A stretch of 32,353 bases of DNA from Patescibacteria group bacterium (GTDB lineage Bacteria > Patescibacteriota > Patescibacteriia > UBA1558 > GWA2-36-10): the NCBI GenBank assembly GCA_018062885.1, contig JAGORJ010000007.1, positions 3,107 through 35,459 of the forward strand, given 5' to 3'. Under the pieces are notes generated by a model that saw nothing but the letters and a program-made list of their open reading frames with translations, made no database searches and had not been told where the DNA came from. The first letter of the stretch is position 1. Each line of letters begins with the position of its first letter. Shown here in pieces: positions 12,862 through 21,352 of this stretch. The translations under genes and the position numbers were made by a program.

Positions 12862-12890
12862 TTGACAACTTGTGTTTATTGAGCTAGATT
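12862..12890 (+). promoter_or_regulatory. Promoter of the zinc-ribbon gene
   Basis: A TTGACA (12862-12867) and a TAGATT (12885-12890) are separated by 17 bases. A second TTGACA at 12910 lacks a -10. Confidence 0.6.
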
Positions 12891-12949
12891 GAAAGCAATA
12901 AAAAGATCATTGACAGTTGAATCACAAGCAGCAAAAGGAGGATTTGCTA

Positions 12950-13171
12950 ATGTCAAAAGTTAAGACACTGTCAATCTCTATACCAGGCAGGGTTCGTAGA
13001 GTTGGCTCTGGTTGTCCACTTTGTAAAGGCAAATTGATTGCTCATCGTGGCGCCACAACATACTACCTGCTTTGTGATCAAAAGCCATGCCCTAGTGCGC
13101 ATATGTTTCCCCTTTCAAAAGAAGAAGAGGGACGCGCTAAGAGAGCATGGCGCAGAGCACTTAGTGCATAA
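12950..13171 (+). CDS. Small zinc-ribbon-like protein, unknown function
   Basis: A 73-residue basic protein with two cysteine pairs, GCPLCKG and LLCDQKPC, spaced like a zinc ribbon, followed by an Arg/Lys-rich C-terminus (RAKRAWRRALSA). I recognise no named family; binding of zinc and perhaps of nucleic acid is inferred. I chose the ATG at 12950 because a near-perfect Shine-Dalgarno sequence AAAGGAGG lies eight bases upstream; an in-frame TTG 11 codons earlier has none. The gene stands alone between its own promoter and terminator. Its G/C-rich codon use and strong ribosome site contrast with adjoining genes and resemble those of the gene at 30459. Confidence 0.65.
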   Translation: MSKVKTLSISIPGRVRRVGSGCPLCKGKLIAHRGATTYYLLCDQKPCPSAHMFPLSKEEEGRAKRAWRRALSA

Positions 13172-13998: not shown

Positions 13999-14922
13999 AT
14001 GATAAAAAGTTATAAAAATTCAGTTCAACAAAAAAAATTGCGTCAGGCAACAGAATTCTCTGATCACTCTTGGCTATCAGTGGTAGAGCCAACCAAAGAG
14101 GAGATCGCAAAACTAAGTAAAAGTTTAAATTTGGAAGAAGATATCTTAGCTGACAGTTTAGATAAATATGAATTACCTCGTATTGAGATAGAGGGAGAAA
14201 ATATTTTGGTTATTTTGCGAGCGATCGTAGAAGAAAAAGCTTCTTATACCACTTATCCTTTGACGATTATTTTTCGGCCAAAATTATTAGTGACCATCAG
14301 TCCGGTTAAGAATATTGTCATTGATGATTTTCTGAATCAAAAAGTAAATTTTTTTACCAGCCAACATTCTAATTTGTTGATCAATGTTTGTTTGCGTGTG
14401 ATTTATTATTATCAAAAATACATTGTAGTCTTGAATCGCAAAGTGCAAAAAGAAAAATCACAAATTCATGGCATTAGTAAAAAAGATGTCTATGATCTTG
14501 TGGAGATTGAAGAAAGTTTAAATAAAGTGATTGCTGCTTTGACCCCAACTATCAGTACTATCAAAAAATTATTGCAATACAATTATATTCATCTTTACAA
14601 AGAAGACAAAGATTTGATTGATGATGTGTCAGTTGATGGCGAGCAAGTTTTGGAGCTGGCGATCACCAATTTGAAAACTGTCAAAAATATTAGAGATGCT
14701 TATACCACTGTCATGTCGATTGAGTTAAATCAAACTATGAGACTTTTGACTTATATCACAGCTTTATTTACCATCCCGATGTTAATCTCTAGTATGTATG
14801 GCATGAATATCAAATTGCCCTTGGCTGAGTGGCCCCATGCTTTTTTAGTAGTTTCTGGCCTAGCTTTATCTTTAGTAGTCGTGGCAGTCATAATTTTTAT
14901 CTCTTTTAAGAAAAAAATCTAG
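13999..14922 (+). CDS. CorA-like Mg2+/divalent cation channel
   Basis: A 307-residue protein of the CorA family: a long cytoplasmic N-terminal domain of mixed alpha/beta and then helical structure (residues ~1-245), and two C-terminal membrane helices. The diagnostic GMN motif appears in SSMYGMNIKLP (near residue 272) at the end of the first helix, with basic residues FKKKI at the C-terminus. It forms pentameric channels for Mg2+ (sometimes Co2+ or Ni2+) uptake. It lies nine bases behind the VIT1/CCC1 gene and is followed by a hairpin terminator. Confidence 0.92.
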   Translation: MIKSYKNSVQQKKLRQATEFSDHSWLSVVEPTKEEIAKLSKSLNLEEDILADSLDKYELPRIEIEGENILVILRAIVEEKASYTTYPLTIIFRPKLLVTISPVKNIVIDDFLNQKVNFFTSQHSNLLINVCLRVIYYYQKYIVVLNRKVQKEKSQIHGISKKDVYDLVEIEESLNKVIAALTPTISTIKKLLQYNYIHLYKEDKDLIDDVSVDGEQVLELAITNLKTVKNIRDAYTTVMSIELNQTMRLLTYITALFTIPMLISSMYGMNIKLPLAEWPHAFLVVSGLALSLVVVAVIIFISFKKKI

Positions 14923-14953: not shown

Positions 14954-14988
14954 AAAAACACATTATATAGCAAAATAATGTGTTTTTT
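14954..14988 (+). terminator. Terminator after the CorA-like gene
   Basis: Arms AAAAACACATTAT and ATAATGTGTTTTT enclose an eight-base loop and run into a T tract. It separates the native metal-transport unit from the G+C-richer region that follows. Confidence 0.8.
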
Positions 14989-14989
14989 A

Positions 14990-15152
14990 GCTTGCTTTTA
15001 TTGACAAAGCAGGTTAATTTTAGTATGGTATCTAGTTATTTATGCTCTTTGTCAAACCAGTGTTTCTAGGTAAACATTGCTTAGAGGCATTTGCATATCG
15101 ATTCGAAAGATTGAAAAACAAACGATCACAACATAAACACACGAGGTGTGAG
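14990..15152 (+). promoter_or_regulatory. Promoter and conserved leader, unit A
   Basis: TTGACA (15001-15006), a 17-base spacer and TATGGT (15024-15029) form a strong promoter, followed by a leader of ~120 nt ending in the ribosome site GAGGTG (15143-15148). The whole block is homologous to 20303-20448: the shared blocks include TTGCTTTTATTGACA, TTTTAGTATGGTAT, CTTTGTCAAA, TTGCTT, ATATCGATT and GAGGTG. A nine-base inverted repeat, TTGACAAAG (15001-15009) and CTTTGTCAA (15047-15055), surrounds the -10 box. The leader is AT-rich although the gene behind it is not. Confidence 0.7.
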
Positions 15153-16730
15153 ATGAAGAACCTGCTTTTTTTGGGATTAGCATTGCTGTTTTGCAGCATG
15201 GCTTTTGCCCAAAGCGCGATCGACTCCACCTACTTTTGGGTGGACAGAGCCAACAGTCAGACGCCGAATGCGTCAAGCTTGTTTGCCGAGAAATTGGCAG
15301 ACGACAACATGTTGGGCCTGTGGTATGCTGGGCAAAACGCTCCCTACTGGGCTGATGCTTATGCTACAATCTACAGCCCAGAAGGGGTGGCTTTGATCAG
15401 TGATCAGTTGTTACTGAATCACCCAGCCTTTTATGGCGAGGTAGTAGCTGATCAAGTCGGTGGTTTTGTTTTGGTGGAAACGGAGTTTAGCCTCACTGTG
15501 GTTAACACCACTACCATGCATTACCATCGTTTTCACCCAGACTATCAGGCCGGACAGTTTGTCCACGATTGGTCTCTCAGTGAAGGCCCTTTGGATAGTC
15601 TAGGGATTGATCCAGGCACTGGTTTTCAACCGGTACTGAATGGAGATCGTCTCTTGATCGTCAAACAAATCTCCGATGGCCATTTTGGTCAGCAGGCGCC
15701 GAGCTACTATGTGCAGGTGCTTGATCTGAGCACTGGTAATTTGTTGCGGGACGATCCCGTGACTTATTTCGGAGATAGCTTCTCCTCGGAGTTGGCAATG
15801 ATTGCGTATGCTGATGGTTTTGTTTTGCAAAACTCTGCGCACACGGCTTTCTTGTCAGCTGATGGAGAGCTTGTCTGGGTGACTGAGAACGCCTTTCCTC
15901 ATGCTCGACCTCGTTTGAGTATCAGAGGAGAGCAGCTCTATTCCATTGGCATCGTGGGTAACGATGCGCACTGGAATGATTACCTGCATCTCACGGTGAC
16001 CGATCTTTATGAGGGTCAGCAGGTGAGAGCAGACACGCTCTATCACGGCGTGCATTGGTATGGTGTGCCTGTTTGGCAAGATGATGTTTTACTAGTAGCT
16101 ACTGCTCACTTGCTTTTTGCTTTTAGCGAAGCAGGTGAAATCTTGGACACTTTGGCCATTGACGATGTGGTGCTCGCGGTGGATTTGCTCGACAACCATC
16201 TCTTGTGGTATCAGTCGAGTTTGACCGCCCAAAAAGCTCTGTGGTTTGAATTTGACGGCTCCTCCTTTGTGCGGAGCAATCAATTTTCTCTGCCGGGCTA
16301 TATGGCGGCTAACGACGCAGCGCGGCCATACTCGCAGGCCAAGGTAACTATCTCTACTCAGGGAACGTACTCGGGCATGTCTTGTGATTATGTAAATAAT
16401 CATTGGGTGACCACTGCTTGGGGTTTGCTTGTGGATCAAGTATCCATAAAGCAGCCAATTGACATGCCGCAAGAGTTCAACTTGCACTGCTACCCCAATC
16501 CGTTTAACACGCAAAGCAATTTTGATTTCACTGTGCCACAAGCTCAGCGTTTATCGATTGCTGTGTACAACATGTTGGGAGAGCGTGTCCAAAGCTTTCC
16601 ATCACAACTTTACTCAGCTGGCCGGCATCAGCAGATGTTGGATTTTTCTGAGCAAAGCAGTGGTGTCTATATAGTCGTACTGGAGACTCATAACAGTCTC
16701 TTCTGTCGGAAATTGACCATGGTCAAATAG
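15153..16730 (+). CDS. Secreted beta-propeller-like protein with T9SS sorting tail
   Basis: A 525-residue protein with a clear signal peptide (MKNLLFLGLALLFCSMAFAQ). The body (~25-430) is rich in beta-strand and aromatic/Gly residues and repeats a pattern of the kind 'VLDLSTGNLL', 'FLSADGELVWV', 'LFAFSEAGEILDTL', suggesting a PQQ/WD40-like propeller. Residues ~438-525 are a type IX secretion C-terminal sorting domain: CYPNPFNTQ, a VYNMLGERV strand, SAGRHQ and a final RKLTMVK. The ATG at 15153 has the ribosome site GAGGTG upstream and gives a proper signal peptide; an in-frame ATG at 15042 does not. G+C and codon use differ strongly from the flanking native genes, pointing to acquisition from a T9SS-bearing (Bacteroidota/FCB-type) lineage; that origin is inferred. 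Confidence 0.72.
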   Translation: MKNLLFLGLALLFCSMAFAQSAIDSTYFWVDRANSQTPNASSLFAEKLADDNMLGLWYAGQNAPYWADAYATIYSPEGVALISDQLLLNHPAFYGEVVADQVGGFVLVETEFSLTVVNTTTMHYHRFHPDYQAGQFVHDWSLSEGPLDSLGIDPGTGFQPVLNGDRLLIVKQISDGHFGQQAPSYYVQVLDLSTGNLLRDDPVTYFGDSFSSELAMIAYADGFVLQNSAHTAFLSADGELVWVTENAFPHARPRLSIRGEQLYSIGIVGNDAHWNDYLHLTVTDLYEGQQVRADTLYHGVHWYGVPVWQDDVLLVATAHLLFAFSEAGEILDTLAIDDVVLAVDLLDNHLLWYQSSLTAQKALWFEFDGSSFVRSNQFSLPGYMAANDAARPYSQAKVTISTQGTYSGMSCDYVNNHWVTTAWGLLVDQVSIKQPIDMPQEFNLHCYPNPFNTQSNFDFTVPQAQRLSIAVYNMLGERVQSFPSQLYSAGRHQQMLDFSEQSSGVYIVVLETHNSLFCRKLTMVK

Positions 16731-16749
16731 CGCAGAAAGGGAACGACGC

Positions 16750-19700
16750 ATGACACGGAAAAATTGTTTGACCCTTTTGCTGCTGTGCCTGACGGCGCAG
16801 TGGGCAATAGCCATTCCGGGAACCCAGCTTTGGAATGGTCAGGAAATCCTGACTCAGACCAATGCCTGGGGAATGAGCATCTGTGATAGCGACGGGCGCC
16901 CGCTGGCGCCCGTCTGGGGGAGTAATAACGATTTTCAACACTGGCAGTTCGGCCCCAACGGTCCGGTGCCCTTTCACGAAGTTGAAGAATTTGTCTACCT
17001 GAATTTGTCGCCAGAAGGGGACTTCGTGCCTTCGGGTATGATTTTCCCTTCGGCGAATCCGCCGGCAACCGAAGGCTTGCTACGCCAGTTCGTTGATGCA
17101 CAACGCCAAGCTTTTAACCTCAACAGCGGCGTTCCTCTGCCAATCGTGGAGGATGTGCGTGTCACGTTCGTTCCGCTGACGCTGTATTGCGAAATCGATG
17201 GCGTGGTCTACTTCGATGATGAGACTTTTTGGACTCACCCCGAAGCACCAGGTCAGCCGATTGATTTTGATCTGTGGTATGACTCTCGGTTTGCTCCGGA
17301 GATGCCCGCTGGTGCACAAACGCCCATGGGGCGAGAGATGGACTTTAGCCTCCCAGCTATTTGGGAGAACAATCAAGACGTGGTGGTCTCACGGATCCTG
17401 CCGGACACGGAGCGTTGCTCCTGGTACGGTGATCGCCCGGGTGTGATTCTGGATCCGGCTACCAATGCACCGTTCCGCTTCAACATGGCGGACATGATGA
17501 TCGATGTGAGTAGATTGTTTACCATGCTTGAAGAAAGCGGTGTCAATCTGCAGAACATCAACCGTTACGATGCAGTGATCTATGAGCTCTCCGGGAATCA
17601 TTTTCTGACCGATGTTAACTCCTCTCCAGCTGGAGGTTTTTCTTTCATCAACGCCTGGGTTCGTCCTGCGGAGCTGATGAATTTTGAGCCCGTGGATCAG
17701 ACTGGACCGGCGTGGATCATGCGGGCGCTCTTGCATCTCCATGGTTACAAAGACACCTTCATCGACATGTCGGCTGATGACGGTGGTAGTGACTGTTGGG
17801 ATCTGATGGGATTTGGCTACTGTGGCTATGCTCGCAATGCGCGCGTGTCGATGGCTTCACTTGAGCGTCACCTCTACGAACCAGCTCTGTGGAATCCAGT
17901 TGATCGACGCAAGGCAGGATGGCTGCAAAACGCTGTCTTGCTTGAAGAGGCTGGCACTTATGTCCTGGATGGCCAAAGCTTCTACTTGGAGGACCCAACC
18001 AGCGATGAAGAGCTGCATTTCTACTCCTGGTCGACGGCTCCGAGTAGCCAAATGAGGAATTTTCCGCTGAACGCAGAAAGCTTCGGTTCGGCTCTCGCTT
18101 TTGCCTCTCACAATGGCCAGCATGTCTGGTGGGAGGGGCTTGAAGCTGTGCCGGAAATCATTCGTTCGGAGAGTATATCTCTGGATGGAGACAATTTCTG
18201 GCCCTGGGATGAGACTCAGGCAGCCTTTCCCAGTGCCAATAACTCATCGTTGGCAATGAGTGAGTGGACAAGTACAGGAACACCGTTTTCCTGGCAAGTC
18301 AGCTTCAGTGTCAACGAGAACCTGCAAACCGTGTTGCACCTGGATAACGCTCCGGCTGACCAGGTAGCGCTTGTTGCTCAGGATGGTATGTGGCAGAGGG
18401 AGGTTCCCTTGGGCTACCAGGGTAACCTCCTGGCTCCGATGTACAATGTCGGACTGCCGGTGCAACAGGTACAGATGTTCGTGGGTGATGAGGAGGGCTG
18501 GGTAGACTTTGCTACTCAGCTGTCTGGCAACTGGTCACAGAACCAGACAGTGCCTTTCCTGATCCCCAGTCAACAATTGTCCCTACCCAGTCAGCAAGCC
18601 TATCTGGGGGAGCAATGGAATCTCGACTTGTTCGTGCAGCCCTTGCAGCCCACTGGAGCAGACTTACACCTGGAGGCCAATCCGATCATCGGAACCCCGA
18701 TGAGCGACTTCGCTGTTTCTTGCAGCGAGAACTATCAGTCGGCCTCCAATGGTGAGTACCTGGCCATCAGTGATGCTGGTCAGGTGCGCGTTTACTACCG
18801 AAGCAGTCTGGTGAGTACCTGGAACATTTCGGATATCCAGGACATACTTCTCACGGATTTCTGTGGTAGCGAGACTCCTGAGCTGATTGTCTCGACGCAC
18901 AATCAAATCCGCATCTGGCAACTCAACGGCATTGTAGTGCCGACGGACTTGTCCGGTTGGCCGGTGAGCGGTGAGAGTGTTCGTCGTCTCATGGTCATCG
19001 ATGATCCCGAGCTTTCCGACGAAGGTCGCGTCTTGGCCTATGTTGACGAGCAGTACCTCTTACTGCGTCGACCTGATGGTGGCATAGTGCGGCCAAGTCG
19101 GACGAGCATTCACCTGCCCTCAACAATTTTGCCGGTCAGGCAAATGGCTTACATGGGAGGTGATGCCTTGGGTCCGCATTTTGCCGTCGCTGGTGGTGAT
19201 CTCACTGACCCATTGCTCGTGACTCTCGATGCTGATGGTAATGAGGGCTTGCGGATCACCAGGGAGATTTTTGGTAACCACCCCATCGAAGTGAGGCAAC
19301 TGCTTGTCGGAGATTTCCTGAACAACGGGTTTTACGACCTGTTGGCCATTATCGATGTTGGGGCTTTGGTGCCCGATGAGGGTACCTACCAAGCTCTGTT
19401 GATGGCCTCTTGGTCGGAAGCAGAGCAAGAGTGGGTCTACAACATCGACTATCTCCGTACCAGCTATACTGGCAATGGGCCAGAAGCAATGGTGCCTTTG
19501 GTTTCCAACTCTCCATCGGAAGCTACACGGGTGGCTTTCAATTTCTGGCGGACACATCTCAATGCTTCGCCGGATAGCTCGATGATTGTGGTCTGTGATT
19601 TTTCTCAGGAGAACTGGGAGTCCGAGATCGAAGTGATCATGGACGCTGAGCTCGCTCATCGCTACATGTTGGCGCATGACCTGGACGACGACGGTCGGAC

Positions 19701-20238
19701 TGACATGGTGGCGCAAAAGAGAGGTCTTGGCCTTGAGGCTTGGCGAGGACTTGGAGCTACAAGCTTTGAGCCCTGGTCGGATGGAGCCCTGATTCACAAG
19801 AGTTCGTCCGATCTGTTTCCAGTGCCACTGATGATCAATGCTCAAGCTCACTTCGGTCAATGGGAAGACGGTGTCTTGCGCTTCAGCAATTCCCTGTCAA
19901 CCAATGAACCTAGCTGGCCTGATCCGCTTGGCCCTGGACACACAGGACAAGTCAGACATCTTCACAACGCCAGCTTGCTTCCGCCGATCTTTGATCTGCG
20001 CATTGTGGCTGGTCGACCGGTGCTGACTTTCCAGGAGCATGCGCCCTGCAACAATTTGAAAATCTACCGTAGTTCGGAGGTCTACGGTAATTACGAGTTG
20101 ATCGCCACTGTTCCCTGGAATGGCATGGGCGGTTTTCAGTGGCAGGACAACACACTGACTGGTCTGCCCAACGCCGCTTTCTACCAGGCAAGGGTGGAAA
20201 TCACTTTCAACGGGCCGGACGGCAGTTCGATCCGTTGA
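16750..20238 (+). CDS. Large secreted protein with degenerate M6-like protease region
   Basis: A 1162-residue protein with a signal peptide (residues 1-21, cleavage near AIAIPG). The region ~100-400 resembles M6 (immune inhibitor A-like) metalloproteases: WDLMGFG (350-356) and the following KAGWL match the conserved core. At the zinc site, however, R325-A-L-L-H-L-H-G-Y-K-D335 stands where H-E-x-G-H-x-x-G-x-x-D is expected, so the first His and the catalytic Glu are missing and activity is doubtful. From ~660 to ~1050 come FG-GAP/VCBS-like repeats (DFCGSETPELIV, GDFLNNGFYDLLAI, DLDDDGRTDMVA), then a fibronectin-III-like end (LKIYRSSEVYGNYELIATV). Unlike its neighbours it has no T9SS tail. The ribosome site AAAGGGA precedes the ATG, and it is co-transcribed 20 bases behind the propeller gene. 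Confidence 0.68.
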   Translation: MTRKNCLTLLLLCLTAQWAIAIPGTQLWNGQEILTQTNAWGMSICDSDGRPLAPVWGSNNDFQHWQFGPNGPVPFHEVEEFVYLNLSPEGDFVPSGMIFPSANPPATEGLLRQFVDAQRQAFNLNSGVPLPIVEDVRVTFVPLTLYCEIDGVVYFDDETFWTHPEAPGQPIDFDLWYDSRFAPEMPAGAQTPMGREMDFSLPAIWENNQDVVVSRILPDTERCSWYGDRPGVILDPATNAPFRFNMADMMIDVSRLFTMLEESGVNLQNINRYDAVIYELSGNHFLTDVNSSPAGGFSFINAWVRPAELMNFEPVDQTGPAWIMRALLHLHGYKDTFIDMSADDGGSDCWDLMGFGYCGYARNARVSMASLERHLYEPALWNPVDRRKAGWLQNAVLLEEAGTYVLDGQSFYLEDPTSDEELHFYSWSTAPSSQMRNFPLNAESFGSALAFASHNGQHVWWEGLEAVPEIIRSESISLDGDNFWPWDETQAAFPSANNSSLAMSEWTSTGTPFSWQVSFSVNENLQTVLHLDNAPADQVALVAQDGMWQREVPLGYQGNLLAPMYNVGLPVQQVQMFVGDEEGWVDFATQLSGNWSQNQTVPFLIPSQQLSLPSQQAYLGEQWNLDLFVQPLQPTGADLHLEANPIIGTPMSDFAVSCSENYQSASNGEYLAISDAGQVRVYYRSSLVSTWNISDIQDILLTDFCGSETPELIVSTHNQIRIWQLNGIVVPTDLSGWPVSGESVRRLMVIDDPELSDEGRVLAYVDEQYLLLRRPDGGIVRPSRTSIHLPSTILPVRQMAYMGGDALGPHFAVAGGDLTDPLLVTLDADGNEGLRITREIFGNHPIEVRQLLVGDFLNNGFYDLLAIIDVGALVPDEGTYQALLMASWSEAEQEWVYNIDYLRTSYTGNGPEAMVPLVSNSPSEATRVAFNFWRTHLNASPDSSMIVVCDFSQENWESEIEVIMDAELAHRYMLAHDLDDDGRTDMVAQKRGLGLEAWRGLGATSFEPWSDGALIHKSSSDLFPVPLMINAQAHFGQWEDGVLRFSNSLSTNEPSWPDPLGPGHTGQVRHLHNASLLPPIFDLRIVAGRPVLTFQEHAPCNNLKIYRSSEVYGNYELIATVPWNGMGGFQWQDNTLTGLPNAAFYQARVEITFNGPDGSSIR

Positions 20239-20244
20239 AGACTT

Positions 20245-20301
20245 GAATCGATACGCACACAAGCAGGCCCGGTTTCTCTTAGGAGGAACCGGGTCTTTTT
20301 T
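20245..20301 (+). terminator. Conserved 3' block and terminator, unit A
   Basis: The hairpin CCCGGTTTCTC (20268-20278) / GAGGAACCGGG (20283-20293), with one wobble pair, is followed by a T tract. The 34 bases from 20245 through the left arm match 21219-21252 behind unit B at all but about four or five positions. Confidence 0.85.
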
Positions 20302-20302
20302 A

Positions 20303-20448
20303 TTTGCTTTTATTGACATAGTGGGCTATTTTTAGTATGGTATTTAGTTAAATCAGTCCTTTGTCAAAGTAATATTTTTAGGCAAGTCTTGCTTGAAAAT
20401 AGTTGTATATCGATTTGAAATATATAAAAATAAAAAGCACAAGAGGTG
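20303..20448 (+). promoter_or_regulatory. Promoter and conserved leader, unit B
   Basis: TTGACA (20313-20318), 17 bases and TATGGT (20336-20341), followed by a leader homologous to that of unit A and ending in GAGGTG (20443-20448). The inverted repeat of unit A is kept with one mismatch (TTGACATAG at 20313; CTTTGTCAA at 20359-20367). Confidence 0.7.
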
Positions 20449-20491
20449 ATTGCCTTTTGTATGGAAAAACTCATCAATGGGGAGACGAATC

Positions 20492-21217
20492 ATGTGCAAC
20501 TTCATCGCACTATTGATCTTACTCTGTGGTCTGCTCTTGCCAGTTAAAGCTATGCAGATCAGTGTGTTGAGTGTTGTTTGGCGATCTGCTGGTTGTCAAC
20601 CTCTGTCCATGCGTATACATTGGTGGCATGGTGATGGTGGTTCTGGTTGGTGTTGCCTCGGAGTTCAAAGTGGTCCAGCTGGTTTTCCGGAGTATCACAA
20701 TTGGGTTTGGTGTCCGGAATTGACTGACGAGTTACCGCCGATGTATTCGGTCATTGATAGCGTCTGGGTCACTTTGGATATCCACGATACTTTTGGGCAG
20801 CCCATTGAACAGATCATTGCTTTGCAACCGACAGACATGTGGTTGCTCTATGATGGTTGTGCTCCAGGTTTGCCTTGGGAGATTCCCGAGAGTGCTTTTG
20901 ACGGCTGTAACCCCATGGGTAACAGCACCGCCATTGTTGAGGATGATCTGCTCCAAGCTTTCGAGCTCAAGCAGAACTACCCCAACCCCTTCAACCCCAG
21001 CACCACGATCAAGTTCAGCTTGCAGTCGGCCAATCATATTAGCCTCAAGGTCTACGACCTGAAGGGTGAGCTGGTGGCCACGCTTGCCAACGAGCAGATG
21101 TCGGCCGGCGAACATCAGCTTGATTTTCATGCCGGCAACTTGAGCAGTGGCATTTACTTGTACACGCTGATCTTTGATGATCGGTCCGTGACGAAGAGAA
21201 TGTTGTTGCTCAAGTAA
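20492..21217 (+). CDS. Secreted protein with T9SS sorting tail, unit B
   Basis: A 241-residue protein with a signal peptide (MCNFIALLILLCGLLLPVKA). The mature part (~21-145) is rich in Trp and Cys (HWWHGDGGSGWCC, YHNWVWCPEL) and matches no family I know; the cysteines could form disulfides outside the cell. Residues ~150-241 are a typical type IX sorting domain: QNYPNPFNPSTTIKFSL, LKVYDLKGELVATL, MSAGEHQLDFHAGNLSSG, and a basic end TKRMLLLK. I chose the ATG at 20492 because GGGGAG lies seven bases upstream and a signal peptide follows directly; the leader's GAGGTG lies near an in-frame TTG at 20450 that would add 14 residues. Base composition is as in unit A. Confidence 0.7.
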   Translation: MCNFIALLILLCGLLLPVKAMQISVLSVVWRSAGCQPLSMRIHWWHGDGGSGWCCLGVQSGPAGFPEYHNWVWCPELTDELPPMYSVIDSVWVTLDIHDTFGQPIEQIIALQPTDMWLLYDGCAPGLPWEIPESAFDGCNPMGNSTAIVEDDLLQAFELKQNYPNPFNPSTTIKFSLQSANHISLKVYDLKGELVATLANEQMSAGEHQLDFHAGNLSSGIYLYTLIFDDRSVTKRMLLLK

Positions 21218-21270
21218 CGAGTCGATATGCACACAAACAGACCCGGTTTCTCGCAGAGAAACCGGGTTTT
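21218..21270 (+). terminator. Conserved 3' block and terminator, unit B
   Basis: Perfect 12-base arms ACCCGGTTTCTC (21241-21252) and GAGAAACCGGGT (21256-21267) with loop GCA are followed by TTT. The sequence before it (CGATATGCACACAAACAG) matches the block behind unit A. Confidence 0.85.
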
Positions 21271-21284
21271 AACTTGTATAAAAT

Positions 21285-21352
21285 TAAAATCAGACTAAAT
21301 TTTTTATTAACGCACTAGCGTGCTAAAACATCAAAAATTTAGTCTGATTTTA
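21285..21352. terminator. 20-bp perfect inverted repeat with nested hairpin
   Basis: Twenty-base arms (21285-21304 and 21333-21352; left arm TAAAATCAGACTAAATTTTT) enclose a 28-base loop that itself folds (GCAC/GTGC). It lies seven bases beyond the stop of the minus-strand Smr gene and behind unit B, so it is most likely a bidirectional terminator, although it is longer than the other terminators here. Confidence 0.65.

Follow-up and report, generated by a model that had tools for sequence, protein, structure and literature searches.

The region described here lies in a window of 32,353 nucleotides (the whole stretch of DNA that was analysed), which was taken from contig C28 of a Patescibacteria genome (G000; 731 kb, 94.8% complete). 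It contains two transcription units, each of which opens with a promoter and leader and closes with a 3' block, and between these ends lie the genes for the secreted proteins c1, c2 and c3, referred to below as the cargo (Table 1). A search of Rfam gave no match within the window.

Table 1. Features of the two units, with positions numbered from the first nucleotide of the window.
Feature	Position	Strand	Basis or remark
Promoter, unit 1	15001..15029	+	TTGACA-17-TATGGT within conserved TTTTAGTATGGTA; invariant in leaders 1 and 2 and in G017
boxA-like element GCTCTTTGTCAA, leader 1	15044..15055	+	Agrees with the motif found de novo in leaders of tail genes
15-bp hairpin of leader 1, directly 3' of boxA	15059..15091	+	Fold; compensatory changes
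GAGGTG ribosome-binding site of c1	15143..15148	+	Sequence
c1, 525-aa secreted protein, type IX-like C-terminal tail	15153..16730	+	PF18962 2.8e-10, TIGR04183 3.7e-9
c2, 1162-aa secreted protein	16750..20238	+	Homologous (23%) to G017 protein
3' block 1	20240..20298	+	Terminator hairpin 20265-20296
Promoter, unit 2	20313..20341	+	TTGACA-17-TATGGT
boxA-like element GTCCTTTGTCAA, leader 2	20356..20367	+	Motif match
13-bp hairpin of leader 2, 3' of boxA	20373..20401	+	Fold; compensatory changes
c3, 241-aa secreted protein, type IX-like C-terminal tail	20492..21217	+	PF18962 6.2e-11
3' block 2	21217..21270	+	Terminator hairpin about 21239-21269

The resemblance between the ends of the two units, which was the basis of the initial annotation, is real. 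The leaders (14980-15132 and 20293-20443) give a single local alignment of about 150 bp at about 73-75%, with a score of 105, against a maximum of 32 for 200 shuffled pairs, and their promoter hexamers and spacing are identical. Between the 3' blocks, the similarity extends for about 53 bp up to and including the terminator hairpin, and the two terminators fold with z scores of -5.5 and -4.5. The cargo was also correctly described as GC-rich within AT-rich DNA: the region 15001-21000 has 44-56% GC compared to 31-44% in flanking 500-base blocks, with the coding parts at about 51% and the surroundings at about 36%. The proteins c1 and c3 share only their PF18962 / TIGR04183 tail, which c2 lacks. 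Two details needed to be amended. The first unit contains two genes, c1 and c2, and the most likely start of c3 is the ATG at 20492, and not the TTG that follows GAGGTG.

The protein c2 has no match in Pfam or NCBIfam, and its structure model is poor, with a mean pLDDT of 30. A sequence search of the PDB with c1 and with the G017 protein c2a (the relative introduced below) also gave no match. The tail of c3 is modelled as a β-sandwich with a pLDDT of about 90-97 over most of its length, and the many weak fold matches to the whole c3 model include the type IX substrate domains 8gl8_D and 8qb1. The PF18962 / TIGR04183 C-terminal domain of c1 and c3 is like that of type IX substrates; unlike type IX systems, it occurs here in a family in which Omp85 (PF01103) was detected in none of 21 genomes, while seven controls were positive. 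Because Omp85 is undetected, classic type IX secretion does not fit, and an outer-membrane route is not evident. A search for SprA/Sov likewise found none in the 21 family genomes, but it also found none in the control genomes. We therefore describe c1 and c3 as having type IX-like tails, rather than as type IX substrates; our guess is that they are attached to the surface by another route.

Among named relatives, the closest one in which this locus occurs is Parcubacteria group bacterium GW2011_GWA2_36_10 (LBRC01000022.1; here G017), which belongs to a sister genus. There the island occupies the corresponding chromosomal position, in the gene order VIT1, leader, c2', c3', 3' block, Smr, Xer, rpsO, pnp. 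The proteins c2 and c3 have 23% and 41% amino-acid identity to the G017 cargo, aligned over most of their length, while most flanking proteins are 78-91% identical and three are lower, at 28-50%. At two other loci, compared in other genera, cargo at the same site is likewise homologous, with 39% identity over the full length at the clpB-glyS locus, and homology also at the lysS locus. The G017 homolog of c2 (L015 8918-12089) bears a HELGH motif, which is not conserved in c2 of the window, and its gene is split by an apparent frameshift. The window has a gene for a CorA-type transporter (13999-14922) between VIT1 and leader 1, which is absent there in G017. At the right edge of the island is a 20-bp inverted repeat (21285-21352) whose counterpart in G017 (L015 about 12890-12955) has the same shape but another sequence; it may be a convergent terminator, next to the genes for Smr and the tyrosine recombinase.

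The initial annotation proposed a cassette whose cargo is exchanged or independently acquired, and named as support three or more loci that agree in their ends while their cargo differs. Such loci were not found. The leader occurs twice in its own genome; among 91 related genomes its full-length similarity is confined to one, namely G017, with otherwise weak short matches; and its pattern matches once across 84,980 species, again at the syntenic G017 locus, where the cargo is homologous. The same annotation had allowed that a simple tandem duplication with divergence might be enough, and such a duplication, of an old island, explains a leader sequence confined to one locus in two genera. The leader pattern is absent from 2.9 million viral contigs, and c2 has no match in viral contigs or plasmids, so an origin from a phage or plasmid was rejected.

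The exchange model in its full form comprises a fixed host leader and terminator, between which cargo acquired independently from type IX-bearing donors is swapped by recombination between the shared ends. It draws on the foreign-looking codon usage of the cargo (leucine TTA at 0.02-0.07, compared to 0.19-0.39 in host genes), on the better conservation of the leader than of the cargo, and on the tyrosine recombinase gene adjoining the island. However, G017 has a recombinase of 50% identity in the corresponding position, and the cargo at that site is homologous along its length, while the leader is found nowhere else in the collections just listed. Divergence at fourfold-degenerate sites is 0.39-0.53 for the cargo and 0.42-0.58 for the flanks; this similarity fits co-inheritance and not recent swapping. 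On the grounds of synteny, homologous cargo and flank-like divergence we rejected an exchange of cargo here, and we consider the cassette model as a whole quite improbable.

Of 47 tail genes compared with their neighbours, 39 have the higher third-position GC (mean difference +0.11, p 6e-9); the effect is strongest in G000, G007 and G017. Recent transfer of the cargo was rejected, because GC at fourfold sites is equal in the two lineages despite 30-53% divergence, and so was the codon usage of highly expressed genes as the reason for high GC, because the tail genes lack the codon choice of rpsO, pnp and dksA. The high GC of the cargo possibly comes from an old acquisition that is still drifting towards host composition, or from selection. 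The strong jump in composition could also suggest foreign contig pieces introduced by assembly or binning, but the same arrangement is present in the independent genome record LBRC01000022.1, and tail genes occur in the single-contig genomes G016 and G027. Synteny refutes an artefact of this kind, which we regard as extremely improbable.

The best explanation of the region is an island of genes for secreted tail proteins that is old and has been passed on vertically in Parcubacteria-group Patescibacteria. The leaders of unit 1, unit 2 and G017 are roughly equidistant pairwise, at 70-73%, whereas the 3' block after c3 is 86% identical to the G017 block and 67% to block 1. We infer that a unit of leader, c2, c3 and 3' block was duplicated in tandem, after which one copy lost c3, the other lost c2, and c1 was gained, to leave c1 and c2 in one unit and c3 in the other. 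The cargo proteins would have diverged fast after the duplication, while the two leaders would have stayed alike because they carry a functional RNA element, consisting of a boxA-like sequence followed by a hairpin.

The leader differs between the genera at about 27-30% of positions, compared to 42-58% for fourfold-degenerate sites of the flanking genes, which bears out the earlier suggestion of a shared and constrained expression leader. The boxA-like element begins about 15 bases 3' of the -10 hexamer and lies about 90-120 nt upstream of the ribosome-binding site; TTTGNCAAA is near-palindromic. A scan of the same genome with the boxA pattern found a third match, inside a glycosyltransferase gene. 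In the alignment of the three leaders, 6 of 15 hairpin pairs are changed on both sides, compared to 0-2 when the partner strand is slid, and 89% of cells pair, compared to 36-56% in slid versions. These compensatory changes, seen in three sequences, are suggestive but not conclusive support for a conserved leader hairpin. Together, these sequence features suggest that the leader is a conserved control element, made up of a sigma-70-like promoter, a boxA-like sequence and a hairpin.

A simpler view is that a plain tandem duplication left the two leaders alike by descent only, each being a strong promoter and ribosome-binding site with no special function. The duplication itself is well supported, and both leaders do have strong sigma-70-like promoters. 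Against this stand the conservation of the leaders beyond that of synonymous sites, the compensatory changes in the hairpin, and the enrichment of the same motif before unrelated tail genes in other families, described below; we therefore regard a plain duplication as unlikely.

PF18962 tail domains are found in 9 of 21 genomes of the family and in 63 of 286 genomes sampled in the class, mostly in dispersed genes. We compared the upstream regions of 49 tail-gene units with 213 control upstream regions from the same loci. De novo searches gave GTTCTTTGAAAA from the tail leaders of the family and order, and GAACTTTAACAA from those of the class. With -35 boxes masked, each motif recognises the other (held-out) set, with p values of 2e-7 and 1.8e-9, and 15/22 and 17/27 held-out tail leaders lie above the 90th percentile of the controls, after a correction of labels that somewhat favours the motif, the three corrected loci having been spotted through their high scores as controls. 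The correction added two tail genes that an earlier filter had missed and, for the tail gene L119, replaced the gene itself by its operon head. With the uncorrected labels and no masking, held-out p values of 4e-6 and 4e-8 were obtained. An earlier masked run did not converge on the motif in one direction; convergence was obtained after relabelling of the tail genes, narrower masking and more starts. A consensus that was settled before the fresh loci had been inspected gave weaker support, with a p value of 2e-4 for the first set and 0.004 for the fresh one.

The published boxA consensus, GYTCTTTAANA (PMC5725501), is gamma-proteobacterial, and in its strict form separates the groups only modestly, with 24/47 tails and 62/216 controls matching at 9 of 11 positions. 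In 13 genomes, the only exact GNTCTTTRACAAWT matches with a ribosome-binding site and an open reading frame of more than 100 aa close downstream stand ahead of tail genes, in four instances, and ahead of one radical SAM gene that adjoins a tail gene (in G247). The two adjacent units in G247 (L123, contig C2, 3010-3106 and 5480-5572) carry unrelated cargo, namely a tail-protein gene and the radical SAM gene; their promoters, boxA elements and ribosome-binding sites are near-identical, while their hairpins differ in sequence and have the same shape. In many tail leaders boxA is 1-21 nt from the ribosome-binding site, and no hairpin follows it. It is concluded that the boxA-like element marks tail-protein genes across the Patescibacteria class, at unrelated loci and with unrelated cargo. 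In the literature collection searched, no publication dealt with type IX tails or with boxA leaders of Patescibacteria. The common boxA-type leader suggests, from the sequences compared, that these surface proteins are controlled in a common manner which has yet to be described.

The motif might instead be a signal in DNA, either an operator or an initially transcribed region, through which a regulator acts on genes for surface proteins, rather than a boxA site in RNA. The position of the window element, about 15 bases after the -10 hexamer, would fit this, as would the near-palindromic form of TTTGTCAAA. A DNA signal would be harder to reconcile with the enrichment of the gamma-proteobacterial consensus in tails over controls, which is found on the sense strand only (pooled MW p 1e-4, against 0.2 on the reverse strand), with the non-palindromic forms GATCTTTAACAATT and GTTCTTTAACAATT at other loci, with the widely varying distance from motif to start codon among tail leaders, and with the RNA hairpin with covariation that follows the element. 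We consider it distinctly unlikely.

Similar elements are found in ribosomal RNA leaders of the family: six of the eight rrn leaders scored contain GCTGATTGAAAA, GCAGATTGAAAA or GCTGATTTACAA, although the scores are moderate (best 7.6-9.6 bits in most), and two have no good boxA match. In several, GCTGATTGAAAA or GCTGATTTACAA sits after the promoter, and in this respect the tail-gene leaders appear to resemble rrn leaders with their boxA (NusB-NusE site). They differ in that the transcripts here are protein-coding, and in that a hairpin follows the box in the window copies. NusB is encoded in the genome that holds the window (PF01029, 2.2e-35). The lambda nut site consists of boxA and a boxB hairpin, and the window leaders are similar in having, close to where the transcript starts, a boxA-like sequence and then a hairpin. 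Unlike the short boxB of lambda, the window stem has 13-15 pairs and a 3-nt loop, and a phage context was not found in the viral contigs; we know of no N-like protein for this system.

On balance, a Nus-factor (boxA) leader probably controls the surface proteins encoded on this old, duplicated island. The nascent leader would recruit NusB-S10 and the Nus complex, which would set the efficiency of mRNA elongation, of translation, or of both, so that the output of surface proteins would depend on how much of the Nus factors and S10 is available. Rho (PF07497) was detected in none of 21 family genomes, while nine controls were positive, which makes classic antitermination unlikely. Translation of E. 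coli suhB is repressed by the boxA in its leader, and this persists when up to 100 nt are inserted ahead of the Shine-Dalgarno sequence; the Nus complex controls both suhB and a ParE-like toxin gene of Citrobacter koseri via boxA (PMC5725501). Given that Rho is undetected, that the suhB boxA works at a distance, and that boxA is near the ribosome-binding sites of many tail genes, we favour translational control of the suhB type, or an effect on elongation independent of Rho, as more likely than protection from Rho. As with suhB and the C. koseri toxin gene (PMC5725501), protein genes here have a short leader with a boxA-like sequence, which is often only a few nt away from the Shine-Dalgarno sequence. 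The difference is that the genes here encode secreted tail proteins, that they belong to Patescibacteria of a family in which Rho was not detected, and that the system is known from sequence.

More tentatively, the separate tail-gene units with boxA leaders may form a dispersed regulon, in which the surface proteins of Patescibacteria would be tied to the ribosome-synthesis machinery in cells without Rho; we regard this as possible rather than probable. Patescibacteria depend on cell contact, and the making and control of their surface proteins are poorly known. The findings raise the questions of how type IX-like tails are used where the outer-membrane assembly protein is undetectable, and of what role boxA has where Rho is undetectable. 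A recognisable leader on tail-protein genes offers a concrete connection, open to test, between the making of ribosomes and the output of surface proteins. If the regulon is real, Nus factors would be global regulators of the make-up of the cell surface and would link it to growth.
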